Below are positions 11,349-34,804 of a stretch of DNA of 64,000 nt, in pieces. The position numbers were made by a program, and so were the translations under genes. The first letter of the stretch is position 1. The number at the start of each line of letters is the position of its first letter. Under the pieces are notes generated by a model, which did no database searches, had not been told where the DNA came from, and worked only from the letters and a program-made list of their open reading frames with translations. Source of the stretch: Actinobacteria bacterium IMCC19121 (GTDB taxonomy: Bacteria > Actinomycetota > Actinomycetes > Nanopelagicales > Nanopelagicaceae); assembly GCA_002284895.1 (NCBI GenBank), contig CP015605.1:558001-622000 (forward strand), read 5' to 3'.

Positions 11349-11362
11349 GCAATGATTATGCC

Positions 11363-13335: not shown

Positions 13336-13388
13336 ACATATCCAAAGCACCACCCCACGAGTACAACTAAAAATGAGGAGTCCAGCCA

Positions 13389-14705: not shown

Positions 14706-14717
14706 AAGAAAGTCACA

Positions 14718-14898
14718 GTCACATTTAGGGCAATTCGGACATTCCCCTAAGTGACCTGCGGTTTTACCCCATCCACAGCTTCACCTTCTCTGTGAATCTG
14801 CGACTTAGGCCTAGTTAGATTTGCCGATGTCAGTCCTAGGCGCCACTCTAAAGCCATTCCCCGTTAGTTATGAAGCCTCACATCGAGGCTGATGGCTT
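14718..14898 (+). promoter_or_regulatory. Structured leader upstream of the transglycosylase-like gene
   Basis: The 232-base gap contains nested inverted repeats in series. GTCAC + TTAGGG (14718-14730) pair with CCCTAA + GTGAC (14745-14755). CACAG (14774-14778) pairs with CTGTG (14790-14794). GCCTAG (14809-14814) pairs with CTAGGC (14836-14841). AAGCCAT (14851-14857) pairs with ATGGCTT (14892-14898), and encloses AGCCTC/GAGGCT (14874-14879/14885-14890). This looks like a structured 5' leader. Actinobacterial cell-wall lytic genes often carry ydaO (c-di-AMP) riboswitches, but I could not match the conserved ydaO cores. The class is therefore unassigned. Confidence 0.45.
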
Positions 14899-14937
14899 GC
14901 GGTCAGGTGATGCGGGTGAGAGAAAAGGAGTAGAGCT

Positions 14938-15525
14938 ATGACGATCAAGCGCAAGAGTATTGCGATCTGGAGCATCGTTGCCTCCATGCTCTTTTTATCC
15001 TCGGCCCTGCCAAGTGCTTATGGTCTGGAATTTCCAATGACCTCTGCCGTTGAAATTGAAGGCGATGCCACAATTTTGGCAGCGGCCGTAAATCCCATCG
15101 ATAGCGCTGCAGCCCTATATGGCTCCATCAATTTAGCCTCCACACCAGTCGGTGCCATGTTCTCCTCAGATTTAGCGTTGGTCTCTGCCATTAGCGCTTC
15201 AGTTGAAATGGCTCGCACCGCAATAGGTGCTAAAAAAGTTGCTCAGGCGATTTTGACCCAAGAGTATGGCTTTGATGATTCTCAGTTCTCATGCTTGAAC
15301 TCACTTTGGACAAAAGAGAGCCACTGGAACTACAAGGCTCACAACTACCGCTCCGGCGCACATGGGATTGCTCAAGCTCTTCCAGCTGAGAAGATGAGTG
15401 TGGTGGGAACAGATTGGCGCACAAACCCAGTCACACAGATTCGCTGGGGAATTCGCTACATCACCATGCGCTATGACACTCCATGCAAAGCATGGGCTAA
15501 GTGGAAATCACATCGTTACTACTAA
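14938..15525 (+). CDS. Secreted transglycosylase SLT-like protein
   Basis: A 195-aa exported protein. A signal peptide (KRKSIAIWSIVASMLFLSSA, cleavage likely near AYG) is followed by a ~75-aa spacer. The C-terminal domain, about residues 105-195, resembles a lysozyme-like transglycosylase seen in Actinobacteria: SQFSCLNSLWTKESHWNY with the candidate catalytic Glu, AHGIAQALPAEKM, and WGIRYI. AAAGGAG 7-8 bases upstream supports the ATG. A peptidoglycan-cleaving or resuscitation-type role is inferred. The preceding structured leader suggests riboregulation. Confidence 0.82.
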   Translation: MTIKRKSIAIWSIVASMLFLSSALPSAYGLEFPMTSAVEIEGDATILAAAVNPIDSAAALYGSINLASTPVGAMFSSDLALVSAISASVEMARTAIGAKKVAQAILTQEYGFDDSQFSCLNSLWTKESHWNYKAHNYRSGAHGIAQALPAEKMSVVGTDWRTNPVTQIRWGIRYITMRYDTPCKAWAKWKSHRYY

Positions 15526-15531
15526 AAGCTT

Positions 15532-17184: not shown

Positions 17185-17190
17185 TGTTTT

Positions 17191-17388
17191 TTACTTCGCC
17201 GCCGGCTTTGCAGAATCTAACTTCTTCTTGGCGCCATCTAGCCATTCCTGACAGATCTTGGCTAGCTCTTCACCGCGCTCCCAGAGCTTGAGTGATTCTT
17301 CCAAAGTGGCACTGCCATCTTCGAGGGATTCAACAACGTCAGCTAACTCATCTCGGGCAGCCTCGTAAGAAATCTTCTTTTCACTCAT
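17191..17388 (-). CDS. xseB: Exodeoxyribonuclease VII small subunit
   Basis: A 65-aa helical protein, the usual size for XseB. SYEAARDELADVVESLEDG and TLEESLKLWERGEELAK match the family. It binds the large subunit XseA, encoded 9 bases upstream on the same strand, to form the ssDNA exonuclease VII. The lysine/alanine tail is unremarkable. The order xseA-xseB, divergent from ispH, repeats the mycobacterial arrangement. Confidence 0.93.
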   Translation of the reverse strand: MSEKKISYEAARDELADVVESLEDGSATLEESLKLWERGEELAKICQEWLDGAKKKLDSAKPAAK

Positions 17389-17397
17389 GGGCTAAAT

Positions 17398-18612
17398 CTA
17401 CTCCTTTGTATTATTCGGCGTCACTGTGGCATTGGTCTCGCCCTTTGCAAGGCGCAAGCGCAATACATCGCCTGTTTTTAACTTCGTTGCATCTCGGGCA
17501 ATATCACCATTAGCTAACTGAACTACTGAGTAACCACGATCCAAGGTTGCCTGCGGTGATAGAGCTCGAACACGGGCCTTGATTTGCACTAACTCTTCTT
17601 TGGCTAACTTCACATGGCCAGCAAAAGAGCGATGGGCACGATCTTTAAGCGCCACAATGATTTCAGCACGAGAGGTGATGATCACGTGAGGATCTTTCAT
17701 CACTGGGCGATCTTTGAAGGATTTAATGCGGGTGGATTCCATTTCAATGCGAGCCAGCAAAGTGCGACGAGCTCTATCGGTGAGCTTTGAAATCATCTCT
17801 ATCTCTTCGGCAATATCTGGCACTACGCGCTTTGCTGCATCGGTGGGAGTCGATGCTCGAAAATCTGCAACGAGATCAAGTAGCGGTGAATCCTTCTCGT
17901 GACCAATGGCGCTGACAATCGGAGTTAAACAGGATGCTGCAAGTCGCACTAATGACTCATCGCTAAAGGGCAGTAGATCTTCAAAGGATCCGCCGCCTCT
18001 AGTAATGATGATGACTTCAACATCTTTATTTGCCTCTAGTTCGCGCAGCGCCTCTGATACTTCAGATACTGCTGCAGCGCCCTGCACAGTGACTTCACGG
18101 ATTTCAAATTCCACACTAGGCCAGCGGCGCTTAACGTTTTCAACAACATCTTTTTCAGCATCGGTATTGCGACCGCAGATAAGGCCAATCTTTTTTGGCA
18201 GCAGTGGCAAACTAACTTTTCGATCTGAATCAAAGAGACCTTGCGATGCAAGCAGAGTTTTTAGCGCTTCAAGGCGGGCAAGTAATTCACCGACACCTAC
18301 TTGGCGGATTTCACGGGCAGATAAAGTAAGGGAGCCGTTTTTTGTGTACCACGATGGCTTTGCATACATCACTACTCGCGCATTAGCTGGCAGCGGTTGA
18401 ATAGCTGCAATAACTGATTTGTGACACATGACCGATAGGGACATATCAACGCTGGGATCGCGCAGGCGAATAAAAGCCATCATGCCGCTGCGTTCATTGA
18501 GTTCTGAGATTTCACCTTCCACCCAGATAGGGCCAAGGCGATCTACATATTCTTTGATTGCTTCAGTAACCACCCGCACAGGCGCGGGGGATTCACTTGA
18601 AGTTTCGAACAT
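17398..18612 (-). CDS. xseA: Exodeoxyribonuclease VII large subunit
   Basis: A 404-aa XseA. An N-terminal OB fold (WVEGEISELNERSGMMAFIR) binds ssDNA, and the central catalytic domain has GLICGRNTDAEKDV, ITRGGGSFEDLLPFSDE and SAIGHEKDSPLLDLVADFRAS, the last in two conserved segments. The C-terminal coiled coil and SPQATLDRGYSVVQ motif follow. It degrades ssDNA to acid-soluble oligonucleotides in repair. The ATG lies 6 bases from a TAGGCT hexamer on its strand, giving a leaderless start divergent from ispH. Confidence 0.95.
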   Translation of the reverse strand: MFETSSESPAPVRVVTEAIKEYVDRLGPIWVEGEISELNERSGMMAFIRLRDPSVDMSLSVMCHKSVIAAIQPLPANARVVMYAKPSWYTKNGSLTLSAREIRQVGVGELLARLEALKTLLASQGLFDSDRKVSLPLLPKKIGLICGRNTDAEKDVVENVKRRWPSVEFEIREVTVQGAAAVSEVSEALRELEANKDVEVIIITRGGGSFEDLLPFSDESLVRLAASCLTPIVSAIGHEKDSPLLDLVADFRASTPTDAAKRVVPDIAEEIEMISKLTDRARRTLLARIEMESTRIKSFKDRPVMKDPHVIITSRAEIIVALKDRAHRSFAGHVKLAKEELVQIKARVRALSPQATLDRGYSVVQLANGDIARDATKLKTGDVLRLRLAKGETNATVTPNNTKE

Positions 18613-18637
18613 GTGCCCAGCCTAATAGACTCCCCTC
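18613..18637. promoter_or_regulatory. 25-bp divergent leaderless promoter xseA / ispH
   Basis: The shared core AGCCTAATAGACT (18619-18631) carries a - strand -10 (TAGGCT, complement of 18619-18624) and a + strand -10 (TAGACT, 18626-18631). Each ends 6 bases before a start codon. The identical 13-base core is found again between the PIG-L gene and pcrA at 52290-52302. The two -35 regions must lie inside the opposite coding sequences. Confidence 0.65.
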
Positions 18638-19591
18638 ATGGCTAAGAGAGTTCTACTTGCTGCGCCCCGCGGATATTGCGCAGGTGTTGACCGCGCTGTT
18701 ATCACGGTCGAAAAAGCCTTGGCGCTCTATGGAGCACCTGTCTATGTCAGAAAGCAGATTGTTCACAACGTCCACGTTGTTGCCAGTTTGGAATCAAAAG
18801 GCGCGATCTTTGTTGATGAAACAGATGAAGTTCCAGAGGGCAAGACCGTTGTTTTCTCAGCCCATGGTGTTGCACCACTCGTTCACGAACAAGCAGCTGC
18901 CAGGTCACTCAAAACTATTGATGCAACATGTCCACTAGTAACTAAAGTGCATATGGAAGCAAAACGTTTTGCTGCAGAAGATGCTGAAATCTTGCTCATT
19001 GGTCACCACGGCCATGAAGAAGTTGAGGGCACAGCCGGTGAAGCCATTGGTCAGGTCAGAATTGTTGATGGTCTAGATGGTGCTAGAAGCGTGCAACCAA
19101 CTCCAGGTAAAAAACTTGTCTGGCTATCGCAAACCACACTGAGCGTTGATGAGACTCTGGACGCCGTTGCCATCTTAAAAGAGCGCTTTCCAGAGATTCA
19201 AAATCCTCCCAGTGATGATATTTGCTATGCCACACAAAATCGCCAAGAAGCAATCAAAGCTATTGCTCCTCAAGCCGACCTTGTCATTGTTGTTGGATCA
19301 CAAAACTCTTCGAACTCTGTGCGCTTAGCCGAAGTTGCACTGGAATATGGCGCAAAAGTTTCACATCTGATCGACTATGCCGAAGAAATTCAAGATCATT
19401 GGTTTAACGGAGTTGAAACTATTGGTTTAACTAGCGGTGCTTCAGTACCTGAGATTTTGGTGACTGATGTTTTAAAGACTCTGGCTGAGCATGGTTACAC
19501 CGATGTTGAAACTATTACAGCAACCGAAGAATCACTGCTCTTTGCGCTGCCACCAGAGCTTAGAAAAGATATGAAAGCAGCTGGGATTTAA
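18638..19591 (+). CDS. ispH: 4-hydroxy-3-methylbut-2-enyl diphosphate reductase
   Basis: A 317-aa IspH, the last enzyme of the MEP pathway, making IPP and DMAPP with a [4Fe-4S] cluster. The three cluster cysteines lie in GYCAGVDRA (residue ~13), [11 protein letters not shown] and [13 protein letters not shown]; the catalytic Glu region EVEGTAGEA is intact. Length is typical. It begins leaderless, 6 bases after TAGACT. Its stop overlaps that of the convergent DUF6542 gene by 4 bases. It would feed the prenyl transferase encoded 6 kb earlier. Confidence 0.96.
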
Positions 19592-19998
19592 TCTCTACGG
19601 GCTTTTGAAGGCTTAGTTTTTGCCTTTGCATTTAAGTAAACAAACCAGCCATAAGCAGTGCCAATAATAAGAAACGGTGCCACACTCGCAAGGGCTGCAA
19701 TGAAATCAATACCAACACGTGATGGTCTAAAGCCATCAAAGATTACGATCCAAAAAAGAGCATTGGCGGCAAAAGCTAGGGGTGGAGTAACAACAGAGAC
19801 ATAGGTTGTGCCAGGGCGACCAAAGCGAAGTGCGCCATAGAATGAAAGAAGAATCATTGAGCCAGTGAGGATTCCAACACCGCTGCGCAGCCAGAGTTCA
19901 ACGAAAGTAAAAAAACCAATAAAGAAGCTCTGCAGCACGACGATGCCTTGTTTTTTAAGTCCAGGACCTTGAATCGCCATTTTAGTTGCTGTGCTCAT
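19588..19998 (-). CDS. DUF6542-like membrane protein
   Basis: A 136-aa protein with about four hydrophobic helices ([72 protein letters not shown]) and a basic tail ([10 protein letters not shown]). A membrane protein of this type regularly sits between ispH and ychF in Actinobacteria. The family name is from recall and the function is unknown. It ends inside the ispH stop and starts directly next to the stop of rmuC (19999), so it is transcribed with rmuC. Confidence 0.68.
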
Positions 19999-21150
19999 TT
20001 ACTTATCTCCATCTGTTATCTCTTCTGCATCAATGAAATCATCATCGCCTAGTTCATCACTTTTAAGCTCACGAACAGATGCTGGTGCCTCTGGGTATTC
20101 AATAGCCAGTTTATCTTTATCGCCAGTAACACCCAAGTTATGGATGCGACGGGCCGGGCTAAGAACAGTCTTTTCAGCCGTTGGAACTAGATCTTCATAG
20201 GCTTTAGATGTTGATGAAATCGCTTTACCAACTGCCACAATCTTGGTGTGTAGGAGAGTGATATTTTTCAAGAAGGTGCTGGCAACCTTTTGAATCTCAT
20301 CAGCATTCTCAGCCAACTTATTGCGTGTGAAGATATAGCCAATGGTGCGAAGTAGCGCCATCATGGAAGTTGGCGTTGCAACAGTTACACCTACTTTAAA
20401 AGCCTTTTCAAGCAGATTTGAATCAAGGCGAAGGGCTTCAGATAACAAAGTTTCAAAAGGAACAAAGAGAACGACGAAATCTGGAGAGCCTTGGGACTTG
20501 TGATAGCCGCGCTTAGCTAAGGCTTCGATGTGCTTGAGCAAATCTTTAGTGTGGGCTTGTAAGAACTCATCACGATCTGCCTCATTAGCTGGATCAAATG
20601 CTTCTAAGAAGCGATCAAAGGGAAACTTTGAATCAATAAAGATATGACTGCCACCAGGCATCTTCACAGTGATATCTGGAATACCTGATGAATCTGAATC
20701 AGTCGTTGATTTCTGGCGGAAATATTCATGATCTTCGCGAAGACCAGCACCTTGAAGTAAGAGTTCAAGTTGGGCTTCACCAAACTTGCCGCGAGTTTGA
20801 GAGTTAGAAAGTGCGCCAGCAATCTTTTTTGTCTCATCAAAGATGGATTCAGAGGCACGGCGCATCTCAAGAATAGTTGTATTTAACTTTGCTTCAGCCT
20901 CTGTGCGAATGCGGTTTGCCTCATTGGCTTGGGTTGAGAGTTTTTCAACTGACTCTTTCATTGCAACGAGCTCAGCATTTAACTTAACGGCTGACTCTGT
21001 TTTGCTGCGCTCTGCTTCTAACTGAGATTTGTAATCATCGAGAAGTGCGCGATCTGCAACAGAGGATGCAGATTTAAGGCGTGCAACTAGATATCCAATA
21101 GCGGCACCGGCCATTAGGCCTATGAGAAGGGTTACTACGTATGCGGGCAT
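19999..21150 (-). CDS. rmuC: DNA recombination protein RmuC
   Basis: A 383-aa RmuC-family protein: an N-terminal membrane anchor (VVTLLIGLMAGAAIGYLVARL), a coiled coil to about residue 100, and the RmuC domain with SNSQTRGKFGEAQLELLLQ, DSKFPFDRFLEAFD and DFVVLFVPFETLLSEAL. The fold relates to restriction endonuclease-like nucleases, and RmuC is linked to limiting inversions at repeats. The C-terminus is acidic (DELGDDDFIDAEEI). It is divergent from ychF across 51 bases. Confidence 0.9.
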   Translation of the reverse strand: MPAYVVTLLIGLMAGAAIGYLVARLKSASSVADRALLDDYKSQLEAERSKTESAVKLNAELVAMKESVEKLSTQANEANRIRTEAEAKLNTTILEMRRASESIFDETKKIAGALSNSQTRGKFGEAQLELLLQGAGLREDHEYFRQKSTTDSDSSGIPDITVKMPGGSHIFIDSKFPFDRFLEAFDPANEADRDEFLQAHTKDLLKHIEALAKRGYHKSQGSPDFVVLFVPFETLLSEALRLDSNLLEKAFKVGVTVATPTSMMALLRTIGYIFTRNKLAENADEIQKVASTFLKNITLLHTKIVAVGKAISSTSKAYEDLVPTAEKTVLSPARRIHNLGVTGDKDKLAIEYPEAPASVRELKSDELGDDDFIDAEEITDGDK

Positions 21151-21186
21151 TGGCCTATCGTGGCAGTTTGCACTGACAATCCCGCG

Positions 21187-21192
21187 TAGGCT
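21187..21192 (+). promoter_or_regulatory. Leaderless -10 element of ychF
   Basis: TAGGCT ends 9 bases before the ATG at 21202, with no Shine-Dalgarno sequence between. This places the transcript start at or next to the start codon, as at other genes in the window. Confidence 0.5.
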
Positions 21193-21201
21193 CTACCCAC
21201 T

Positions 21202-22275
21202 ATGAGCCTGTCTATCGGAATCGTCGGTCTGCCAAATGTGGGTAAATCCACCCTTTTCAACGCATTGACCAAGAACAACGTCCTAGCTGCTAACTATCCC
21301 TTTGCAACCATTGAGCCCAACGTTGGAGTTGTTGGTGTGCCTGATGATCGCTTGGCAAAGCTGGCAACTATCTATGGCTCACAAAAGCTTTTACCTGCCG
21401 CCCTTTCCTTTGTTGATATCGCAGGAATTGTTAAAGGTGCATCAGAAGGTGCTGGTCTTGGCAATAAGTTCCTAGCAAATATCCGTGAAACCGATGCGAT
21501 CTGCCAAGTTATCCGAGTATTTAACGATGGCGATGTTGTTCACGTTGATGGCCGTATTGATCCAGCCAGTGATATTGAAACCATTAATACTGAGTTAGCC
21601 CTGGCTGACCTGCAAACAATTGAAAAGGCAATCCCTCGTCTTGAAAAAGAAGTACGTGTTGCTAAAGAGAAAGCACCAGCACTTGAGGCAGCAAAGGCTG
21701 CAAATGAATGGTTGCAATCTGGTCGCCCTCTTTCACAAAGTTCTATTAACCGAGAAGATCTAGCTGAGCTTCACCTACTTACTGCGAAGCCATTTTTATA
21801 TGTTTTCAACGTCGATGCTGCGGAATTAAATGACGGAGAGCTTCGTAAGAAGCTCCAAGAGTTAGTTTCACCAGCAGAGGCAATCTTTTTAGATGCAAAG
21901 ACTGAAGCAGAGTTAGCAGAACTCAGTGATGAAGATGCACTCGAGCTGTTGCAATCAATTGGTTTAGAAGAGCCTGGGCTAGCAACTTTGGCCCACGTTG
22001 GTTTTAGAACTCTGGGTTTGCAAACTTACTTAACTGCAGGTCCAAAAGAGGTTCGTGCATGGACAATTCATAAAGGTGACACCGCACCAGTTGCTGCAGG
22101 TGTTATTCACACAGATTTCCAAAAGGGCTTTATTAAGGCTGAGATTGTTTCATTTGCTGATTTGATGGAAGCGGGATCAGTTGCCGAAGCGCGCTCTAAA
22201 GGAAAAGTGCGCATGGAAGGCAAAGATTACGTAATGGCAGATGGAGATGTTGTTGAATTTAGGTTCAACGTCTAA
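21202..22275 (+). CDS. ychF: Redox-regulated ATPase YchF (Obg family)
   Basis: A 357-aa YchF/OLA1. G1 is [13 protein letters not shown]3 is [18 protein letters not shown], the inserted helical domain spans ~residues 120-195, the G4-like region is [11 protein letters not shown], and a C-terminal TGS domain contains [17 protein letters not shown]. YchF prefers ATP over GTP and interacts with ribosomes. Length is typical. The stop overlaps that of the convergent aminotransferase (CTAA, 22272-22275). Confidence 0.95.
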
Positions 22276-23624
22276 TTGCCGGTGTAATACTTTCCAATTT
22301 CGCTCAAAGCCTTATCCAACATCTCAAGACCAAGCTTGGCATCTTCAACTGAAATATTGCATGGTGGGCACAAGTGAATGCGGTTGAAGTTATTAAATGG
22401 CATTAAGCCATGCTTCTTACATGCAGCCACTAATTCATTCATTGCAGGACTTGATGCACCGTATGGAGCTAGAGGTTCATGTGTTGCACGATCAGAGACC
22501 ATATCCACGCCCCAGAAAACACCTGCGCCGCGGATATCGCCAATAACTTTGTGCTTCTTAGCTAACTCTTTTAAGCCAGGACCAAGGATGGTTTCGCCAA
22601 TCATTGTGGCGTTTTCTAGCATCTTCTCTTCCTTCATGACATCGATAGTTGCAACTGCCGTTGCACATGCCAATGGGTGACCCATATATGTCAGGCCGCC
22701 AGGAAATACTTTTTCATCAAATGTTTTTGCGATTGCATCGCTGATTACAACGCCACCAAGTTGGACATAACCAGAGGTAACACCCTTAGCAAAAGTAATC
22801 AGATCTGGAACAGCTGCGCCATGTTGGTATGCAAACCACTTACCTGTGCGACCAAAGCCAGACATCACTTCATCTGCAATCCATAGAATCTTGTATTTAT
22901 CGCACAACGCACGGATTCCTTCTAGATAACCCTTAGGTGGCATTAACACACCAGCAGTTCCTGGAACAGATTCAATCAAGATTGCAGCAATTGTTCCTGG
23001 ACCTTCAAAGATAATTGTTTGTTCAAGATGCTCTAGAGCACGCTTGCACTCTTCTTCTTCAGTTGTTGCCCAGAAGTTAGTGCGATAGAGATAGGGACCA
23101 AAGAAGTGAACATGGCCAAAAGCAAACTCATTAGGGAATCTACGTGGATCTCCAGTTGCATTAATAGCAGCACCTGTGTTGCCGTGATAGGAACGATAAG
23201 TAGAGAGCACTTTGTGCTTGTGAGTGTGTAAGCGGGCCATGCGAATAGCATTTTCAATCGCATCTGCGCCGCCGTTAGTAAAGAAAACCTTTGCAAAGTG
23301 ATCACCAGCTAATTCAACAACTCGCTGGGCTGCTTCATTGCGGGCATCATTGGCATGTTGCGGTGCAATGGTTGTTAGAACTTCGGCTTGATCTTGAATA
23401 GCTTTAACTACTTTTGGATGTTGGTGGCCAATGTTTGTGAAAACAAGCTGTGATGAGAAATCTAAATAAACTTTGCCTGCATGGTCCCAAAACCTTGATC
23501 CTGAACCACTTGCAACTGGCATAGGCGAAATTGCACCTTGGGCAGACCATGAGTGAAATACATATTTATGGTCAGCAGCACTTACGGCCTCTTGCTTTGC
23601 TGGATCGCTCTTTGGTGCACTCAT
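22272..23624 (-). CDS. Class III PLP-dependent aminotransferase
   Basis: A 450-aa class III (omega) aminotransferase. The PLP signature LWIADEVMSGFGRTGKWF is followed by LITFAKGVTSGYVQLGG with the Schiff-base lysine in FAKGV; the FFTNGGADAIENAIRMAR segment binds the cofactor phosphate. Such enzymes use beta-alanine, taurine or gamma-amino acids with pyruvate or oxoglutarate. The divergent mmsA neighbour suggests beta-alanine or beta-aminoisobutyrate breakdown to a semialdehyde. I use ATG 23624 (MSAPKSDPAK); a longer frame to 23702 would overlap mmsA and lacks support. Confidence 0.88.
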   Translation of the reverse strand: MSAPKSDPAKQEAVSAADHKYVFHSWSAQGAISPMPVASGSGSRFWDHAGKVYLDFSSQLVFTNIGHQHPKVVKAIQDQAEVLTTIAPQHANDARNEAAQRVVELAGDHFAKVFFTNGGADAIENAIRMARLHTHKHKVLSTYRSYHGNTGAAINATGDPRRFPNEFAFGHVHFFGPYLYRTNFWATTEEEECKRALEHLEQTIIFEGPGTIAAILIESVPGTAGVLMPPKGYLEGIRALCDKYKILWIADEVMSGFGRTGKWFAYQHGAAVPDLITFAKGVTSGYVQLGGVVISDAIAKTFDEKVFPGGLTYMGHPLACATAVATIDVMKEEKMLENATMIGETILGPGLKELAKKHKVIGDIRGAGVFWGVDMVSDRATHEPLAPYGASSPAMNELVAACKKHGLMPFNNFNRIHLCPPCNISVEDAKLGLEMLDKALSEIGKYYTGN

Positions 23625-23672
23625 GAAAGTTAGCCTTTTATCTAGTAGGTAGCGCCATCTTAACGCCTCAAG

Positions 23673-23678
23673 TAGATT
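23673..23678 (+). promoter_or_regulatory. Leaderless -10 element of mmsA
   Basis: TAGATT ends 6 bases before the ATG at 23685, in the 60-base space between mmsA and the divergent aminotransferase. No ribosome-binding site is visible, so a leaderless mRNA is likely. Confidence 0.5.
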
Positions 23679-23684
23679 GCACCT

Positions 23685-25169
23685 ATGACTCAGATTACGC
23701 ATTGGATCAACGGCGCCCTCGATACCAAAAAGCCAGAACGCACGGGAGATATCTATAACCCAGCCACTGGAAAAGTAACTGGGACTGTGGCCTTTGGAAA
23801 TGCCGCCACCGTTGATTCAGCCGTATCTGCAGCAACAGCAGCTTTCGCCGAATGGCGCCATAGCTCACTAACTAAGCGCGCACAGGTTCTTTTTGCTTTT
23901 CGTGAGTTAGTTGCACAAAATAAAGAAAAGATTGCAGCTCTTATCACTGCAGAGCACGGAAAAGTATTAAGTGATGCTGCAGGTGAAGTAACACGTGGTC
24001 TTGAAGTTGTTGAGTTTGCTTGTGGCATTCCACATCTACTCAAAGGTGGTTTTTCAGAGGAAGTATCAACTGGAGTAGATGTTTACTCAATCCGCCAAGC
24101 ACTTGGCCCAGTTGCAATCATCTCTCCCTTTAACTTCCCAGCAATGGTGCCAATGTGGTTCTTCCCAGTGGCAATTGCTTGCGGAAACACCGTTGTTGTT
24201 AAGCCTTCTGAGAAAGATCCATCTGCTGCAATGTTTATGGCGCAGTTATGGAAAGAAGCAGGATTGCCAGATGGTGTTTTCAATATTGTTCATGGAGATA
24301 AAGAAGTTGTAGATGCACTCCTTGTTCACCCAGGAATCAAATCAATTTCATTTGTGGGTTCAACTCCTATTGCGCGCTATGTCTATGAAACCGGAACTAA
24401 AGCCGGAAAGCGCGTTCAAGCATTGGGCGGGGCTAAAAACCACATGATCGTTCTTCCAGATAGCGATCTAGAACTAGCAGCAGATGCTGCCATTAACGCA
24501 GGCTTTGGTTCTGCAGGAGAGCGCTGCATGGCAATCTCTGCAATCGTTGCTGTTGAACCTATTGGAAATGCATTGGTTGCACGTATTAAATCCCGTATGG
24601 CCAACATTGTTACAGGCGATGGCACAAAGGGCAGCGACATGGGCCCACTTGTGACAGCAGTTCACCGTGACAAAGTTGCTTCTTATATTCAAGCCGGAGC
24701 TAAAGAAGGTGCAACTGTTGTTGTTGATGGCCGCGATCTAAAAGTTGATGGCGATGGATTCTTCCTTGGGCCTACTCTGCTCGATAACGTGAGCCCAAAG
24801 ATGTCGGTCTATACCGATGAAATCTTCGGTCCAGTTCTAAGCATTCTTCGCGTTAATACCTATGACGAGGCATTGAATTTAGTTAACTCACATCAATATG
24901 GAAATGGCACAGCAATCTTCACAAATGATGGTGGAGCTGCACGTCGTTTCCAGAATGAAGTAGAAGTAGGAATGGTCGGAATCAACGTTCCTATTCCTGT
25001 GCCAATGGCGTATTACTCATTTGGTGGATGGAAGAACTCATTATTTGGTGATTCACATGCACATGGCACTGAAGGTGTTCATTTCTTTACTCGCGGCAAA
25101 GTTGTTACAAGCCGCTGGTTAGATCCAAGCCATGGTGGAATTAACTTAGGTTTCCCACAAAACGACTAA
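23685..25169 (+). CDS. mmsA: CoA-acylating methylmalonate-semialdehyde dehydrogenase
   Basis: A 494-aa MmsA-type aldehyde dehydrogenase. The family-specific ISPFNFPAMVPMWFFPVAIA segment, the ALGGAKNHMIVLPDSD block and the catalytic cysteine in GSAGERCMA are present, and PIPVPMAYYSFGGWKNSLFG is diagnostic. It oxidises methylmalonate or malonate semialdehyde to propionyl- or acetyl-CoA in valine, thymine and beta-alanine catabolism. Next to it a divergent class III aminotransferase could supply the semialdehyde. The stop overlaps the luxR-type gene by 4 bases. Confidence 0.93.
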   Translation: MTQITHWINGALDTKKPERTGDIYNPATGKVTGTVAFGNAATVDSAVSAATAAFAEWRHSSLTKRAQVLFAFRELVAQNKEKIAALITAEHGKVLSDAAGEVTRGLEVVEFACGIPHLLKGGFSEEVSTGVDVYSIRQALGPVAIISPFNFPAMVPMWFFPVAIACGNTVVVKPSEKDPSAAMFMAQLWKEAGLPDGVFNIVHGDKEVVDALLVHPGIKSISFVGSTPIARYVYETGTKAGKRVQALGGAKNHMIVLPDSDLELAADAAINAGFGSAGERCMAISAIVAVEPIGNALVARIKSRMANIVTGDGTKGSDMGPLVTAVHRDKVASYIQAGAKEGATVVVDGRDLKVDGDGFFLGPTLLDNVSPKMSVYTDEIFGPVLSILRVNTYDEALNLVNSHQYGNGTAIFTNDGGAARRFQNEVEVGMVGINVPIPVPMAYYSFGGWKNSLFGDSHAHGTEGVHFFTRGKVVTSRWLDPSHGGINLGFPQND

Positions 25170-25918
25170 GCAGATTGTCTGAAAGAGCTCTTGTTGTACT
25201 TTTGAATAGCTTCTTTGCGCCCGGAGACCTGTAGAATTTCATACATACGCATGCTCTCTTGACGAATAGTTGATTCACTAAACCCTAAGTCATTTGCAAT
25301 TTGCAGGTTTGTTAGTCCATCTGCCATACCATGCAGAATTTCACGTTGGCGCCTAGTTAAGAGTTTTATTACATCCTCTTGTGCCACCTTATTAGTTTCT
25401 AATGACTCGCGAGAAATTTGAAGTGCAATTAATGACCCAACTGCTTCCAAGAAAGAAACTTCATCTGGTGTGGGTCGGCGAGTTTCATGTAAGAGAATTC
25501 CTAAAACACACATGCTTGAATTACGCGCACTGATTGGCCAAGTAATAAAAGTTTTCATCACTGCATCAATAGGAAATTGCGCCAGCCTTGGGTAATCTCG
25601 ACGCCAGTCTTCATTATCAGCAATCCAAATCAGTGAGTTATTTTTAATTGCATCAGTTGATGGGAGTTCATCGTTTATTGAATAACTCTGCCAGCCGCTA
25701 GTCATGTATTCATCAAAACCACAGTGAGCAAGAGGTACCACATTTCCATTTTCATTTAATCGGGAGATAAACATGTCAGTGGGATTCAAATGCGCGAAAA
25801 TCCGCGTTTTTACAAACTTACAGAGGTCATCGAGATCTGGATTGTTTACACCCAGGTATTCAGTTAGCTCTGAAATCTTTGCTAAGTAATTAATATTCTT
25901 GTTGGGCATTGTGCGCAC
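25166..25918 (-). CDS. GAF-domain LuxR-family transcriptional regulator
   Basis: A 250-aa regulator. Residues ~25-165 look like a GAF-type sensor (FAHLNPTDMFISRLNENGNV; VMKTFITWPISARNSSMCV), and the C-terminal ~60 residues are a LuxR helix-turn-helix (LTRRQREILHGMADGLTNLQ, then IANDLGFSESTIRQ). No transmitter, receiver or autoinducer-binding domain is seen. The signal is unknown. It diverges from the giant surface-protein gene across 173 bases and may control it; this is inference from position. ATG 25909 is an alternative start. Confidence 0.82.
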   Translation of the reverse strand: MRTMPNKNINYLAKISELTEYLGVNNPDLDDLCKFVKTRIFAHLNPTDMFISRLNENGNVVPLAHCGFDEYMTSGWQSYSINDELPSTDAIKNNSLIWIADNEDWRRDYPRLAQFPIDAVMKTFITWPISARNSSMCVLGILLHETRRPTPDEVSFLEAVGSLIALQISRESLETNKVAQEDVIKLLTRRQREILHGMADGLTNLQIANDLGFSESTIRQESMRMYEILQVSGRKEAIQKYNKSSFRQSA

Positions 25919-26091
25919 TCACCTCCCTCTCCATGGAAATTTGTCCTTTGTACTCTTCAATTGCTTGAAATGACCTGATAATGACCAAAGGGTGACTAGT
26001 AGGGGTTAATAAGCCTTTCACGGAGGCAGGAGAATTACAACCAGACTCACACGCGTGAGCCCCCCGTGAGCGAAGCGAGATTTAAGCCGAA
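25919..26091. promoter_or_regulatory. Divergent intergenic region, luxR-type gene / surface protein
   Basis: The 173-base space has an inverted repeat CTCAC/GTGAG (26046-26050/26055-26059) and two direct copies of CGTGAGC (26054-26060 and 26065-26071), 11 bases apart, about one helical turn. This spacing is what a dimeric helix-turn-helix protein would favour. A purine-rich GGAGGCAGGAG (about 26021-26031) looks like a ribosome site but no start codon follows it. No clear -35/-10 pair was found. Confidence 0.35.
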
Positions 26092-28197
26092 TTGATAGAA
26101 GGCATTGCCGCAGGATTACGAAGCAGGGTGCTGCGACGTAGGGAAAAAACCTACGCTTTTAAGGTAAGCAGAACTTCCAAGATTTTTACATCCCTCATAA
26201 TTATTTTCGCTCAGATCCTTGCGGGATTGTCACTACAGGTAATGGTTGCACCTAGTGCAAGTGCAGCCTGCGCAACAGGATTTCCAACTGTTGGTTGGCA
26301 GGCAATACGAACTACAGCGGGTGTGGAATTAACAGATCCTAATAATGATTTTACGCCTTACCCTTCTGGCGGCACCGCCGATATTTCCTCAGTAACTGGA
26401 TCGCCTATGGATTGGTTTTCATCTGGTGATGGTTGTGATTTCTTTTTTAGGTTACGACTTAAAGGCGACCCTCGAGCTGGAACTGGTTTAGATAATAACT
26501 TTTATGTAGTTGCGATTGGTAGAGGCACAACACCCTTAGTTTGGGTTGGCATTAATGGCGGTGGAAATAATAAAACATCATATGTCTATGCATATAACCC
26601 TTCAACTTCAAGCTACTTGAACAACGCGGCAGTTAATTCGAATGATGGCACCGATAAAATCAAAGTCCAAGCTGTAACGGTTGGAGCTACAACCGAATAC
26701 TATCTTCAGTGGAGAATTGCAAATTCAATTCTTCCAGCCAGTGTATTCACTTCACCAGTTGGCCTTTTTGCTGGAACTTCGCAGTCTAATGTTGTAACAA
26801 CAATAAATGCAGACTGCGTGGATTCTTTAATAACTAGTGGATCTTGTACTCCCAAATATGATGGAACTCTTGCCGTAGACTTAACAAAAAATACTGATTC
26901 GGCAATTCGCCCAAACATAACCTCAGTTACTCCATCCAAGGGCACTACGGCTGGGGGAACTTCAGTTTCTATAGCTGGAACCAACTTAGCTAATACCTCT
27001 CAAGTGTATTTCGGCGGTAAAGCCGCAACCATTACATCATCCACAAATACAGCGGTAAACGTCTCTGTTTCAACTCCAGCTAGTGGATCTACCGGTCCTG
27101 TTGATGTCTTTATCGTTAACCCCGGAGGCACTTCTAACACATTGGTTAATGCTTACACGTATATCACTGCTCCTGTGGTTAGTACTATCGCCGCATCTGG
27201 AGTCACGGGCACTAGTGCACAATTAAATGCAGACATAAATCCAGGAGCAGATCTACTGACGGCCGCAAGTTTTTGCTATGGACCTACCTCTAATTTAACT
27301 GGGTGTACATCTGTTCCCCTAACTTCTGACGAACTTACATCCATTGGATCTGGAACCTCGAATGTTCGAATTACCAAGCCATTGAGCGGATTAGACACCG
27401 GTTCGACTTATTATTTTAGAGTTTCTGCAACCAACTCGATTGGTATCACAACTGGTTCAACCTTAAGTTTTACACCTGCAAATGCAACTTTATCTATCAC
27501 GACTGGTTCACTTGCAAATGGAACATATGGCGTTGCTTATTCCCTTTCTCTCACGGCAACCGGTGGTTCAGGTACATATAGTGCTTGGGCTCTGACGTCA
27601 GGAAGTTTGGCTGCAGGACTTACTCTTAACACCACAACAGGAGTTATTTCAGGTACTCCAACCGCAACTGCATCGGCAACTCCACTCACCTTTAGAGTTA
27701 CTGATTCAGTTAATGCAACTGCAAGCAAAAACTTCACCTTAACAATCGCTGCAGGACCACCAGTTGCAACGACAAGTGATCCAACCTCAATTGGAGCCAC
27801 TTCAGTAACTTTGAATGGATCTGTTACTGCCAACGGGGCAACTACTTCAATTCTATTCTGCTTAGCCACAAGTGGTGTAACGAATGCTTCTGGTGCACTA
27901 ACTTGTATTTCGAATCCGACTGCTTCAACCACTTCAACTAACTCATCAGCCACAGTTACTTCAGCAGTTACTGGTCTCACTTCAGGAACTATTTACTATT
28001 ATCAAATTTACGCAACAACAGTTTCTGCTGGCAACGATTACGGTTCTGTGAAGAGCTTCATTCCAGCAAGTGCACCTTCTGTATCTACAGGTTCAGCAAG
28101 TTCGATTAGTTCCTCGGGTGCAACTCTTAATGGCTCTGTCACAGCCAATGGCTCCAGTGCAGCTATTTCTTTCTGTCTAGCCACATCAAGTGCCTAA
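26092..28197 (+). CDS. Giant secreted repeat protein, N-terminal part (ends at in-frame stop)
   Basis: 701 codons from TTG 26092 to TAA 28195-28197. A GTG at 26128 is an alternative start with a shorter N-region. A basic stretch (RRREK), a hydrophobic core (KIFTSLIIIFAQILAGLSL) and cleavage site PSASA-AC near residue 58 form a signal peptide. Then come a ~200-aa unassigned domain, an IPT/TIG domain (26905-27160), an FN3-like repeat (27170-27475), a putative-Ig repeat ending FTLTI (27485-27755), and FN3-like repeats with FCLATSG and ALTCISNP motifs. The stop falls inside the second of these, at a position filled by a sense codon (Thr) in the preceding copy. Reading continues in the same frame for 1,523 more codons. 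Threonine/serine richness is typical of extracellular adhesins. Confidence 0.8.
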   Translation: MIEGIAAGLRSRVLRRREKTYAFKVSRTSKIFTSLIIIFAQILAGLSLQVMVAPSASAACATGFPTVGWQAIRTTAGVELTDPNNDFTPYPSGGTADISSVTGSPMDWFSSGDGCDFFFRLRLKGDPRAGTGLDNNFYVVAIGRGTTPLVWVGINGGGNNKTSYVYAYNPSTSSYLNNAAVNSNDGTDKIKVQAVTVGATTEYYLQWRIANSILPASVFTSPVGLFAGTSQSNVVTTINADCVDSLITSGSCTPKYDGTLAVDLTKNTDSAIRPNITSVTPSKGTTAGGTSVSIAGTNLANTSQVYFGGKAATITSSTNTAVNVSVSTPASGSTGPVDVFIVNPGGTSNTLVNAYTYITAPVVSTIAASGVTGTSAQLNADINPGADLLTAASFCYGPTSNLTGCTSVPLTSDELTSIGSGTSNVRITKPLSGLDTGSTYYFRVSATNSIGITTGSTLSFTPANATLSITTGSLANGTYGVAYSLSLTATGGSGTYSAWALTSGSLAAGLTLNTTTGVISGTPTATASATPLTFRVTDSVNATASKNFTLTIAAGPPVATTSDPTSIGATSVTLNGSVTANGATTSILFCLATSGVTNASGALTCISNPTASTTSTNSSATVTSAVTGLTSGTIYYYQIYATTVSAGNDYGSVKSFIPASAPSVSTGSASSISSSGATLNGSVTANGSSAAISFCLATSSA

Positions 28198-28209
28198 ACT
28201 GGCAGCGCC

Positions 28210-31200
28210 TTGACCACATGTATCTCTAATCCAACCTCTAGCCCAGCCGCAACTTTAAGTACCTCGACAGTCACTGCCACTACAGGTGGCCTAACAAATG
28301 GCACAACTTATTATTTTCAGGCATATGCAACGAACTCAACTGGAACGACCTACGGTTCTGTGCTCAGTTTTACTGTCACGGCAACAACTACAACTACTGT
28401 AACTGCTTCGCCAACTGCAACTACTTTGGGTAAAGTTGTAAATCTCTCCACAACTATTTCACCTAGTGCCGCAACAGGCTCAGTAGTTTTCAAGGATGCA
28501 TCTAACAATATTCTCTGTACAGTTGCCTCTCTAAGTTCGGGTGCTGGAAACTGTAATTGGACTCCTGGATCAGCTGCCAGTTATGTTGTGACCGCATATT
28601 TCACATCAGATAATGTGAATGCTTATACAAGCTCGACTTCTTCTACTACAACAGTCACTGTTAATGCAGCAGTCACAGTTTCTGGTGGATCAAGTGCATC
28701 AACGACTTATGGAACAGCAACAACGTCTACTGCCTTTTCTTCTTCGGGAGGAACGGGAACTAAAACTTGGACAGTTGCTTTAACTTCGGGCTCAGGAGCA
28801 GTCAGTGGAATCACCATAAGCAGCGGAGGCGTTATATCTGTTGCGGCAACAACTACTGTTGGAACTTACTCTATGACTGTTACCGCAACGGATATAGTCG
28901 GAGCGATAGGTACAAAAACTACAACTATCACAGTCAATCCTGCAGCTTTAACGATCACTTCTACAACAACAAGTTCGTCAAAAGTGTATGGAACTGCAAA
29001 TCCAACGTTTTCCTTCACTTCAAGTGGGCTCAAAAATTCAGAGACTATTTCATCCGTTACTAATACTTTTACTGGAACAGGTTCATACAACTCCACTACA
29101 CCACCGTCAAATGTAGGAACTTATACATTGACCCCTTCAGCTGCAGTATTTGCTGGTAGTGCAAGTGCATCGAATTACACAATCACTTATGCAACCGTTG
29201 CGTATTCAATTACAAAAGCAACACAGTCGGTTCTTTGGAGCCCTACAACCACGTATCAAACTTCAGCACAGCCAGTTACATGGTCGAGCGAGGCGACTGG
29301 TTTCGGAGCAATTACTTACGCAGTTACCACAGCTGGAACATCACTTGGCTGCACCCTTTCCAGCGGATCTGTGCAATTGAGTTGGACAACTGGCGCAACT
29401 GGGTCGTGTGTAGTTACCGCCTCAGCAGCAGGTACTTCAAATTATGATCCAGGGTCAATTGCAAAGACTTTTACAGTTACTTCTCTTTCAATTCAGACAA
29501 TTACTTTCAATTCCCCAGGTAATCAGACATACGGAACTACTTTCACCGTTTCAGCAACTGCTTCACCTTCAGGTTTGCCTGTCACTATTTCGACCTCAGG
29601 TGGTGGTTGTACTGGATCTGGAACAAGTACTTCAGGCAGTACGGTTACTTTAACTGCTAGTGCCGGTGGTACTGGAAACTGCAGCATCACCGCTTCGCAA
29701 GCCGGAGATGGAACCTATGCACCAGCTTCTGATGTAACTCATGCAATCGACATTAATAAGGCAAGTCGCGCAATTACCCTGACTGCTGGCTCAACCACAA
29801 TTGCCTATTACGCAACTACCAGTATTACTTTAGCCGCTTATTCTGGGACTGGTTCAATTTCTTACAGTGTTGGCACTGGATGCTCATTGGATGCAGGGAC
29901 TCTCACTTCTTTAACTTCTTCAGGAACTTGTGCGGTCACAGCGACTTTATCAACTGATGATAATTACCTTGAAGCTATTTCTAATACCTTAACTATTATA
30001 AGAACTACTGCGCTACTCACAATTACGGCAACGAGCAGCGCGGCTAGTAAAAATTATGGTGCCGCTGATCCAACTTTTTCATTTAGTAGTGGCTCACTCA
30101 AAAATTCAGAGTCGATTTCAGAAGTTGTCAAAACTTTCACAGGAACCGGTTCATACAATTCGACGACGCCCCCATCAAATGCAGGTACCTACACAATTAC
30201 GCCTTCTGGTGCGACAATTTCAGGAGGCGGTGCGACCAATTACACAATTAGCTATGTAACCGCTTCGTACCAAATTGTTCAGATAAGTCAGACAATTAGT
30301 TTCACTTCTCCGGGAAATAAGAATTATGGAGCTACTTTCACCGCCACTGCAACTTCAGATTCAGGCCTTGCAGTCACTATTACAGCAACGGGTGATTGCA
30401 GCGGAACCGGAACGAGCCCTGTAACTGTAACCCCAACAGCTGTTGGCACTAACTGTGTACTCACTGCATCGCAAGCTGGCAATGGAAATTATTTAGTCGC
30501 CACTAATGTTGTTAATACAATTTCAATTTTATCTGGCGATCTTGCTAATCAGAGTGAATTAGTATTATCAGTTACACCGATTTCAAAGAGTTATCCATAC
30601 ACTCAAGTTTTAAGTCTGTCCGCTTCCGGTGGTTCTATTGATCCAGGTACCGTTACTTATGCCATTGCATCAGGTGGAACTGCTACTGGGTGCGCGCTGT
30701 CCAACTCATCATCCACTGCAACCATTACATCTACTACAACCGGAACTTGTCTAATAGCTGCAACAAAGGCAGGCAATGGAGCTTATAACCCGGTTACAAG
30801 TTCAAATGTGACATTTACCTTTACCCAAGCAACTCAAACCATTTCATTTACAACGCCATCGGCTATGACTGTGGGAGATGCCAACCAAGCGCTTACATTC
30901 TCTGCATCAAGTGGACTAACAGTCACGCTCACATCTAATTCAACTGCTATATGTGTAATTTCATCCTCGTCCGTAGTGGCAGAGGATGAGGGAACTTGCT
31001 CAATTACTGCAAGTCAGGCTGGAAATAGTAATTACTCTGCAGCTGCTTCGATTACACGCACATTCTCGATTAGTCCAGCAACTTCTAATTCTTCTGGAGG
31101 TGCGAAAACTGATCCTGAGCTAATTTGGTATGACCCAGAATATATAAAATTTGGAACAGCGATAAGTTCACGTCAACTAAATGCAAGAGCTTCAGTGCCT

Positions 31201-32769
31201 GGTAGCTATATCTATTCAGCCACAATCGGAACAATCTTGCCAGTAGGCAACCATGTCATCTCAGTAATTTTTATCCCAAGTAATAAAACAAAATATAATA
31301 CAATTATCGCTAAAGTCACCGTTACTGTGTTGGGTCAAGTGACAACTCCTACACCAACCCCAACCCCAACCCCAACGCCAACGCCAACGCCAACGCCTAA
31401 ACAAACAATTGATCCAAAGGCAAAGGGCGTTATAACAACAGGTGCACAAACAGTTGTTGCTTCCGTCGTGAATGTGAATTCAAATGCTGTAGTTAAATCC
31501 ACTACGACTTCCTTTACAGCTACAGCCACCCCAACTTCAACTCCTAGTGCAACTCAATCTTCTTCACCACGACCAACATCAACGCCTAGTGCCTCAGCCA
31601 CCCCAACTTCAACTCCTAGTGCAACTCCAACTGCTTCACCACGACCAACTTCAACACCGAGTGCAACTCCACGACCAACTTCAACACCGAGTGCAACTCC
31701 ACGACCAACATCAACACCTAGTGCCTCAGCCGAGCCAACCTCAACACCAAGTGCAACTTCCCGACCAACATCAACGCCTAGTGCCTCAGCCGAGCCAACC
31801 TCAACACCAAGTGCAACTTCCCGACCAACATCAACGCCTAGTGCCTCAGCCGAGCCAACCTCAACACCGAGTGCAACTTCCCGACCAACCTCAACACCAA
31901 GTGCTACTCCAACTGCTTCACCACGACCAACGTCAACTCCTAGTGCAACTCCAACTTCTTCAGCAACTGCCACTGCACAACCAACAGCAAGTAGCACACC
32001 AACACCAACTCCTACCCCAACCCCTGCAACCATTACTGACGTAAAGCGCCCAGTTGGAGAAGGAATTTCACGCGTATCAGTTTCTGGTACAAACGTCTCC
32101 GTGACTCCACAAAAGAGTTTTAGCGGAATTACTAGTGTGGCTGTGAACGTTAAGCAAGATGGTCAAACTAAAGAAGTAATAATTCCAGTTACAGTATTAC
32201 CTGAGGCTCCAAAGACTCCAGTATTTGTTCCAAAATCTCTGGAAGAAACTGTCATATCTTGGAAATTATCTCCTAATGCCACTAGTTATGATGTTCTAGT
32301 AAAAGGCCAAATTGTTTGTCAGACAACCGCATCATCATGTTCAGCTGCCGTAACAGTTGGACCTAAGACTCCTGTCGAAATTGTGGCTAAAGGCGGGGAC
32401 AATTTGAAGGCTGTAGTGACTCCGATCTATCAACCAGTCAAGCCAATTCCTGCAATAACAGTCAATTTTGCTACGAATTCTTCTGTGCTCAGTGCAGCAC
32501 AAAAAGCTGAACTTAATAAGATTGCTAAATACATTACCGAAGAAGGCTTCATGCGCTTAGTTGTCTATGGATTCACAGATTCACGTGGTGGTGTGGACAA
32601 CCAAGCACTCTCTGTTGCACGTGCTCAATCCACTGCCGATTACCTTGCAAAATTAGCTCCAGGAATTGATTTTGTGGTCTCTGGTTTTGGCCCTTCAAAT
32701 CCTGTGGCATCAAATAAAACAGCCGCAGGAATGGCGGCTAATCGACGTGCTGAACTATCGCTCTGGTAG
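28210..32769 (+). CDS. Giant secreted repeat protein, C-terminal part with OmpA-like domain
   Basis: Same frame as the preceding ORF, separated only by one TAA. TTG 28210 is a formal start with no ribosome site and no signal peptide, so this half is probably not made alone. In order it has the rest of the FN3-like repeat, a bacterial Ig-like repeat (28380-28660), a putative-Ig repeat, two MBG-type domains sharing TFTGTGSYNSTTPPSN (about 28940-29210 and 30010-30270), further Ig-like repeats, a Pro/Thr/Ser-rich linker (31340-32030), and an OmpA-like peptidoglycan-binding domain (about 32447-32766: VNFATNSSVLSAAQKAEL; YGFTDSRGG; ANRRAELSLW). It would anchor the protein to peptidoglycan. Confidence 0.78.
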   Translation: MTTCISNPTSSPAATLSTSTVTATTGGLTNGTTYYFQAYATNSTGTTYGSVLSFTVTATTTTTVTASPTATTLGKVVNLSTTISPSAATGSVVFKDASNNILCTVASLSSGAGNCNWTPGSAASYVVTAYFTSDNVNAYTSSTSSTTTVTVNAAVTVSGGSSASTTYGTATTSTAFSSSGGTGTKTWTVALTSGSGAVSGITISSGGVISVAATTTVGTYSMTVTATDIVGAIGTKTTTITVNPAALTITSTTTSSSKVYGTANPTFSFTSSGLKNSETISSVTNTFTGTGSYNSTTPPSNVGTYTLTPSAAVFAGSASASNYTITYATVAYSITKATQSVLWSPTTTYQTSAQPVTWSSEATGFGAITYAVTTAGTSLGCTLSSGSVQLSWTTGATGSCVVTASAAGTSNYDPGSIAKTFTVTSLSIQTITFNSPGNQTYGTTFTVSATASPSGLPVTISTSGGGCTGSGTSTSGSTVTLTASAGGTGNCSITASQAGDGTYAPASDVTHAIDINKASRAITLTAGSTTIAYYATTSITLAAYSGTGSISYSVGTGCSLDAGTLTSLTSSGTCAVTATLSTDDNYLEAISNTLTIIRTTALLTITATSSAASKNYGAADPTFSFSSGSLKNSESISEVVKTFTGTGSYNSTTPPSNAGTYTITPSGATISGGGATNYTISYVTASYQIVQISQTISFTSPGNKNYGATFTATATSDSGLAVTITATGDCSGTGTSPVTVTPTAVGTNCVLTASQAGNGNYLVATNVVNTISILSGDLANQSELVLSVTPISKSYPYTQVLSLSASGGSIDPGTVTYAIASGGTATGCALSNSSSTATITSTTTGTCLIAATKAGNGAYNPVTSSNVTFTFTQATQTISFTTPSAMTVGDANQALTFSASSGLTVTLTSNSTAICVISSSSVVAEDEGTCSITASQAGNSNYSAAASITRTFSISPATSNSSGGAKTDPELIWYDPEYIKFGTAISSRQLNARASVPGSYIYSATIGTILPVGNHVISVIFIPSNKTKYNTIIAKVTVTVLGQVTTPTPTPTPTPTPTPTPTPKQTIDPKAKGVITTGAQTVVASVVNVNSNAVVKSTTTSFTATATPTSTPSATQSSSPRPTSTPSASATPTSTPSATPTASPRPTSTPSATPRPTSTPSATPRPTSTPSASAEPTSTPSATSRPTSTPSASAEPTSTPSATSRPTSTPSASAEPTSTPSATSRPTSTPSATPTASPRPTSTPSATPTSSATATAQPTASSTPTPTPTPTPATITDVKRPVGEGISRVSVSGTNVSVTPQKSFSGITSVAVNVKQDGQTKEVIIPVTVLPEAPKTPVFVPKSLEETVISWKLSPNATSYDVLVKGQIVCQTTASSCSAAVTVGPKTPVEIVAKGGDNLKAVVTPIYQPVKPIPAITVNFATNSSVLSAAQKAELNKIAKYITEEGFMRLVVYGFTDSRGGVDNQALSVARAQSTADYLAKLAPGIDFVVSGFGPSNPVASNKTAAGMAANRRAELSLW
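31351..31398 (+). repeat. (CCAACN)n simple repeat coding for Pro-Thr
   Basis: About seven units of CCAACC/CCAACG encode an alternating Pro-Thr linker inside the surface protein. Codons vary at the third position (ACC then ACG), in two blocks. Such tracts are prone to slippage; whole-unit changes would stay in frame. Confidence 0.85.
31531..31940 (+). repeat. Tandem Ser/Thr/Pro-coding minisatellite, 30/60-bp units
   Basis: Units coding for PTSTPSA-type heptads are repeated across the linker. Bases 31741-31800 and 31801-31860 are an exact 60-bp tandem duplication, with 31681-31740 a near copy. All units are multiples of three, so copy-number change would alter linker length without breaking the frame. 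Long opposite-strand frames here are composition shadows. Confidence 0.9.
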
Positions 32770-32813
32770 AGCCTGAAATAGGCCTTAATTAGTCCTTATC
32801 AACGCTCTAAAGG

Positions 32814-32819
32814 TAAGAT
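32814..32819 (+). promoter_or_regulatory. Candidate -10 element of the typA transcript
   Basis: TAAGAT lies 7 bases before a GTG-ATG (32827-32832) that opens a 21-codon ORF, and 86 bases before the typA start. It follows the TAnnnT spacing of the leaderless genes in this window. Confidence 0.4.
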
Positions 32820-32826
32820 TGCCCCT

Positions 32827-32892
32827 GTGATGGCCGGTAACTTGGCCTCAAGTAATGTTTTGTTGATCAGTAGAAACCAACGGTTTCCTTAG
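32827..32892 (+). CDS. Candidate 21-aa leader peptide upstream of typA
   Basis: GTG-ATG at 32827 opens a 21-codon frame (MMAGNLASSNVLLISRNQRF + P) ending at TAG 32890-32892, 13 bases before the typA GTG. The leaderless-type -10 placement is the only positive support. The frame runs through two overlapping hairpins, GAAACC/GGTTTC (32873-32887) and TTTCC/GGAAA (32884-32896). The second would cover the likely typA ribosome site AGGAAA. It could be a translational leader or coincidence. Confidence 0.3.
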   Translation: MMAGNLASSNVLLISRNQRFP

Positions 32893-32905
32893 GAAAGTAG
32901 TTTTC

Positions 32906-34804
32906 GTGGCCAAGACTCAAGCACATCTTAAAGACCTGCCTGTTAAAAAGCGCGAAAACCTTCGCAACGTTGCCATCATCGCTCACGTTGACCACGGTAA
33001 AACAACTCTCGTTGATGCCATGTTGTGGCAGTCAGGTGCTTTTGCTGCCTATAAGAAGCAAGACGATAGCCAAGATCGCATGATGGATTCAATGGATCTA
33101 GAGCGCGAAAAGGGAATTACGATTCTTGCTAAGAACACTGCTGTTAAGCGCGGTGACACGATCGTTAACATTATTGACACACCAGGCCACGCAGATTTTG
33201 GTGGCGAAGTTGAACGTGGACTTGAAATGGTGGATGGCGTTATCTTGTTAGTGGATGCATCAGAAGGTCCACTTCCTCAAACTCGTTTCGTTTTGCGCAA
33301 AGCGCTAGAGAAGAACTTGCCAGTTATCTTGTTAATCAACAAGGTTGACCGTCCCGATTCACGTATTGCTGAAGTTGTTGATGAAGCATATGAATTGTTC
33401 TTAGATCTAGATGCAACAGAATCACAGATTGAATTCCCAGTTGTCTATGCATCAGCTAAAGCTGGTCGTGCATCACTCAAGCGTCCAGCAGATGGTGGAA
33501 TGCCAGAAGAAGAAAACCTGGATGTTTTATTCGACACTATCTTCTCTGCAATTCCAGCACCTGAATATCACGAAGGTGCACCACTTCAAGCACACGTAAC
33601 AAACCTTGACTCTTCACCATTCCTTGGGCGTTTGGCGCTATGCCGCGTGCGCGAAGGTGTTATTAAAAAGGGTCAATCAGTTACTTGGATTAAGACTGAT
33701 GGAACTACCGAGCGCGTGAAGGTTTCAGAGCTTTTGATTACTGAAGCACTCGATCGTGTTCCAGCGCTAGAGGCTCACCCAGGTGACATCATCGCTGTGG
33801 CAGGTATTGAAACAATTACTTTGGGTGAAACCCTTGCAGATCTAGAAAATCCACATGCATTGCCTTTAATCATCGTTGATGAACCATCAATTTCTATGAC
33901 AATTGGTATCAATACATCTCCTCTTGCAGGCAAGAGTGGAAAACTGCTTACAGCACGCCAAGTTAAGGGCCGACTGGATGCAGAGCTAGTAGGTAACGTT
34001 TCATTGCGCGTGTTAAACACAGAACGTCCAGATACATGGGAAGTTCAAGGTCGCGGAGAACTCCAGCTTGCTGTTCTTGTTGAAATCATGAAGCGCGAAG
34101 GTTTTGAACTAACTGTTGGTAAGCCACAGGTAGTTATTAAGAAGATTGATGGAAAGATCCATGAACCGATGGAGCGTTTAACAATTGATGCACCTGAAGA
34201 ATATTTAGGTGTTCTCACTCAGTTGATGGCACTTCGTAAGGGACGCATGGAACAAATGGTTAACCACGGAACCGGTTGGATTCGTCTTGACTACAAGGTT
34301 CCTTCTCGTGGACTTATTGGATTTAGAACAGAGTTCTTAACTGAAACTCGTGGAACAGGATTACTGCACCACGTATTTGATGGTTACGAGCCTTGGTATG
34401 GCGATATCCGCACACGTGGAACAGGTTCACTTGTTTCAGACCGTATGGGAACAGTTACTTCTTACGCACTCTATGGAACACAAGATCGCGGAACAATATT
34501 TGTTGAGCCAGGCGATGAAGTCTATGAAGGTATGGTTATTGGCGAGAACTCTCGTTCAGATGACATGGATGTGAACTGTGTTCGTGAGAAAAAATTGACA
34601 AACATGCGCGCTTCAGGCACAGATGAATCAGAGCGTTTGATTCCGCCTAAGAAGCTCAACATGGAAGGTGCTCTTGAGTTCTGCCGTGAAGATGAGTGCG
34701 TTGAAGTTACGCCAGCTGTAGTTCGTATCCGCAAGGTTGTTCTTGATGGTGACGAGCGTGCCCGTACTACTGCGCGCCAGAAGAAGGCGAACCTGAACGC
34801 TTAA
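32906..34804 (+). CDS. typA: Ribosome-associated GTPase TypA/BipA
   Basis: A 632-aa translational GTPase: G1 AHVDHGKTTL, switch region EREKGITILAKNTAV, G3 DTPGHADFGGEVERGL, G4 NKVDRPD and G5 YASAKAG, then EF-G-like domains II, III and V and the BipA-specific C-terminus (RIRKVVLDGDERART). It binds ribosomes and helps assembly or stress adaptation. The start is GTG 32906; AGGAAA about 9 bases upstream is the likely ribosome site. A 136-base leader holds a candidate short ORF and alternative hairpins. Confidence 0.95.
   Translation: MAKTQAHLKDLPVKKRENLRNVAIIAHVDHGKTTLVDAMLWQSGAFAAYKKQDDSQDRMMDSMDLEREKGITILAKNTAVKRGDTIVNIIDTPGHADFGGEVERGLEMVDGVILLVDASEGPLPQTRFVLRKALEKNLPVILLINKVDRPDSRIAEVVDEAYELFLDLDATESQIEFPVVYASAKAGRASLKRPADGGMPEEENLDVLFDTIFSAIPAPEYHEGAPLQAHVTNLDSSPFLGRLALCRVREGVIKKGQSVTWIKTDGTTERVKVSELLITEALDRVPALEAHPGDIIAVAGIETITLGETLADLENPHALPLIIVDEPSISMTIGINTSPLAGKSGKLLTARQVKGRLDAELVGNVSLRVLNTERPDTWEVQGRGELQLAVLVEIMKREGFELTVGKPQVVIKKIDGKIHEPMERLTIDAPEEYLGVLTQLMALRKGRMEQMVNHGTGWIRLDYKVPSRGLIGFRTEFLTETRGTGLLHHVFDGYEPWYGDIRTRGTGSLVSDRMGTVTSYALYGTQDRGTIFVEPGDEVYEGMVIGENSRSDDMDVNCVREKKLTNMRASGTDESERLIPPKKLNMEGALEFCREDECVEVTPAVVRIRKVVLDGDERARTTARQKKANLNA

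Follow-up and report, generated by a model that had tools for sequence, protein, structure and literature searches.

Premature stops in surface protein genes

The anchor of Listeria monocytogenes internalin A is of the LPXTG type. Premature stop codons in its gene, inlA, yield a truncated, secreted internalin A (PMC10299213, whose reference list includes Nightingale et al. 2005 as a study of these stops). In Bartonella henselae, the badA gene of certain strains carries premature stops, and so does a long badA-like open reading frame next to it (PMC8859334). A third point of comparison lies closer to hand, in the OmpA-anchored Ig/FN3-repeat proteins of the genus studied here, which are built from a signal-like N terminus, Ig-like repeats and a C-terminal OmpA-like domain.

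The gene described below lies in a 64,000-nucleotide stretch of the genome of Actinobacteria bacterium IMCC19121 (the window). As in inlA, a single in-frame nonsense codon lies upstream of an otherwise intact anchor, taking the C-terminal anchor away and leaving a signal-bearing N-terminal fragment; the inlA alleles, however, come from many strains and are accompanied by phenotype data, whereas here there is one genome and a different protein, with an OmpA-like domain. Like badA, the gene is giant and repetitive, encodes a surface protein and lies in a variable island; BadA, though, belongs to the trimeric autotransporters and comes from a diderm, and in two strains its lesions are frameshifts (PMC8859334). 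The gene has the overall plan of the OmpA-anchored proteins of its own genus; unlike it, all 16 complete genes of that class are uninterrupted, and their repeats and N-terminal domains differ.

A long reading frame with one internal stop

The features to which the text refers are as follows.

25166–25918, minus strand: LuxR-family regulator with a weak GAF match (Pfam GerE, 4e-11; GAF_2, 1e-4, below cut-off), divergent from the surface gene, within the accessory insert and missing from the empty site of G088
25170–32786, no strand: accessory insert between mmsA and typA (blastn of the window against the G088 and G015 loci; flanks ~25 bases apart in G088)
26092–28197, plus strand: N-terminal part, with signal-like segment, unique N-terminal domain, TIG, He_PIG and FN3-like repeats, ending in TAA
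28195–28197, plus strand: TAA, the only in-frame stop inside the gene; it lies in the second FN3-like copy, within a variable loop
28198–32769, plus strand: C-terminal part in the same frame, with the remainder of the FN3-like repeat, Big_3_5, MBG_2, a Ser/Thr/Pro-rich linker and the OmpA-like domain, lacking an export signal of its own
32460–32766, plus strand: complete OmpA-like domain (peptidoglycan-binding type), approximate limits (Pfam OmpA, 6.4e-12, profile positions 2–98 of 98)

Translation of 26092–32769 gives one frame of 2226 codons with two stops, the TAA at codon 702 and the terminal TAG. The start is uncertain: it may be the TTG at 26092, as given, or the GTG at 26128, which retains the signal-like stretch. 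Codon-usage log-odds prefer this same frame in 22 of 22 consecutive 100-codon blocks, on both sides of the TAA, with means of 0.077 upstream and 0.075 downstream. The open run after the stop, 1523 codons, is far beyond chance, since the longest run in 300 mononucleotide shuffles is 234 codons. These results bear out a preliminary description of the sequence, which had reported two long open reading frames in one frame, split by this TAA alone, with 1,523 codons and an intact OmpA-like anchor beyond it.

The protein carries an array of Ig-like and FN3-like domains. Upstream of the stop Pfam finds TIG and He_PIG, and downstream MBG_2, all over their cut-offs; a Big_3_5 match, also downstream, has a bit score under its curated cut-off. 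The N-terminal part holds the strongest hydrophobic stretch, residues 34–48; it is followed by an A-S-A type site, and the two, read by eye, may form a signal peptide. No comparable hydrophobic stretch was found near the start of the C-terminal part. Judged by its domains, the gene before its interruption is of the OmpA-anchored repeat surface protein class, having the OmpA domain and the repeat array, with the export signal now in a separate chain, before the stop, from the OmpA domain after it.

Two FN3-like copies lie next to each other, and the stop falls in a loop of the second. Across ~60 aligned copies, a set to which overlapping loci contribute some copies more than once, the residues of this loop vary widely. 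Around the stop the preceding copy can be aligned locally with no gap, and it has Thr at this position. The preliminary description had placed the stop inside such a repeat and noted this Thr, both correctly; it had also given the two copies the same length, whereas they measure 103 and 102 residues as we cut them.

A variable site shared with a LuxR-type regulator

In G088, the closest species found, blastn matches the flanks of the insert at 92.4% (8698–25168) and 96.7% (32787–33295) identity, and these flanks lie ~25 bases apart; the site is therefore empty there. The mmsA–typA interval holds a different gene of ~500 codons in G015 and other, unrelated genes in G024, G054 and G057. On these comparisons the contents of the interval vary from genome to genome.

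At five further loci in the genus (L194, L199, L202, L203 and L210) a LuxR-type gene (GerE, weak GAF) and a surface-type gene that is rich in repeats or bears a signal are arranged head to head, and the pair in the window is thus a recurring arrangement. Pfam finds adhesive-type or TIG domains at two of the five, and the regulator occurs in tandem copies in several of these genomes, with a maximum of five in L203. This suggests that regulator and surface gene form a recurring cassette. A comparison of the intergenic regions between LuxR-type and surface genes revealed no clear common motif.

Relatives of the interrupted gene

The unique N-terminal domain has no match in the 134 other species genomes of the genus. 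A homologue of this domain, 59–61% identical, is found in a different genus (G289; L116, G289:C60) beside ychF and rmuC, near the same conserved genes as the window gene. That contig stops within the TIG domain, short of the stop position, and a search of G289 for the C-terminal part gave no match. Together with the absence across the genus, the homologue indicates that the gene is likely old in the family, yet patchy. No allele covering codon 702 was found in the genus (135 genomes), in a family sample (296), in genome-contig scans or in a pattern scan of viral contigs. The sole genome-contig match, in a Cytophagales metagenome-assembled genome (86% over 46 residues), was rejected as generic FN3-like repeat similarity.

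The 16 complete OmpA-anchored surface genes of the genus (~20,500 codons) are all unbroken from the signal-like N terminus, identified by eye, to the OmpA domain; the longest in-frame segment upstream of any of them is 115 codons. They establish the existence of uninterrupted genes of this class and do not name the codon that would restore the frame in the window gene. Another giant surface-type gene with TIG repeats, 2256 codons long, is found intact in the same genome as the window gene (L120 6990–13757; G000:C1 about 472990–479757). From this survey, the split is peculiar to the window surface gene and is not a conserved design. The second giant gene adjoins other genes that have a common C-terminal 'ITCVKGK..KKV' motif.

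Origin of the stop

We favour, with a probability of about 0.62, a recent nonsense mutation in a dispensable accessory surface gene, leaving at most an unanchored exported fragment. Before the mutation, the gene would have encoded a long surface protein with a signal peptide, Ig/FN3 repeats and a C-terminal OmpA-like domain as its anchor. It is an accessory gene, lying with its divergent LuxR-type regulator gene in the variable mmsA–typA site, and would recently have gained one nonsense mutation. Translation would end at codon 702, giving a fragment of ~700 residues; with the stop at this codon, at most an exported fragment lacking stalk and anchor could result. The C-terminal part would not be exported and probably would not be made. 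Support comes from the single stop in a coding signal unbroken in every block, from the 16 uninterrupted relatives and the empty G088 site between flanks 92–97% identical, and from the decoding machinery: none of the genome's 38 tRNA genes, which cover all 20 amino acids, has a UAA-reading anticodon (ochre suppressor), and two RF-1-family release-factor genes, most simply RF1 and RF2, are both intact. With a signal-like segment before the stop and the anchor after it, the N-terminal fragment would probably be secreted and unanchored, a fate that the preliminary description had already, and fairly, proposed.

The most serious competitor, which we regard as possible but clearly less probable, is an error of one base in sequencing or consensus, the living organism having an intact gene of 2225 codons. 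This would agree with the difference being a lone one of the substitution type, in a gene whose repeats can lead short-read mapping or polishing astray, with 16 of 16 complete relatives being intact, and with 1523 downstream codons free of further lesions. The assembly, however, consists of a single closed 1.5 Mb contig with a completeness of 99.95%, and over the ~53 kb of the window that could be compared with the sister genomes G088 and G015 no other conserved gene is interrupted, which makes the assembly look clean; where other window genes seemed to contain stops, these all preceded the true start or belonged to an antisense or spurious frame. The two FN3-like copies also seem to differ enough to make cross-mapping an unlikely source of the TAA codon. 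The clean comparison favours a real base, short of proof: it says little on rare base errors, because only ~3.8% (about 1 in 26) of the possible single substitutions in the surface gene create a stop. We infer that the TAA base is real. A very recent change and a sequencing error, both raised in the preliminary description, are the readings that this evidence leaves standing.

It is doubtful that the truncation is tolerated or adaptive, with release of the N-terminal domain without its anchor benefiting the cell and selection keeping the stop. The N-terminal part does retain its signal-like segment and complete domains as far as the interrupted repeat, but the stop breaks up a repeat instead of marking a domain boundary, and none of the 16 complete relatives has this organization. 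As there is one lesion and no others, decay and tolerated truncation look the same.

Very unlikely is a leaky or programmed stop at which rare read-through gives the full anchored protein, as the preliminary description had also suggested: the frame past the stop is still open and coding-like, but the lack of an ochre suppressor and the two intact release-factor genes speak against it, as do the RNA around the stop, which has no stable structure or downstream stem and is less structured than shuffles (z +1.67), and the lack of any such arrangement among the 16 relatives. Least probable of all is that selection keeps the stop to set, by UAA read-through, the ratio of released N-terminal head to rare full-length anchored protein. 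Independent restart of the C-terminal part was also considered and rejected: on visual inspection, the candidate start codons that closely follow the TAA lack a clear ribosome site, and no signal peptide lies downstream.

Discussion

Set beside inlA stops and broken badA alleles, the single stop may most simply be taken as a known kind of event and not as a new translational switch. It has no bearing on the genetic code or on translation, and serves mainly as a caution that a lone stop in one assembly should not be read as a mechanism. If real, the recent nonsense mutation would be one more case in which a streamlined bacterium loses a cell-surface anchor encoded in a variable island, where surface genes may turn over fast, perhaps under pressure from phages or grazers.
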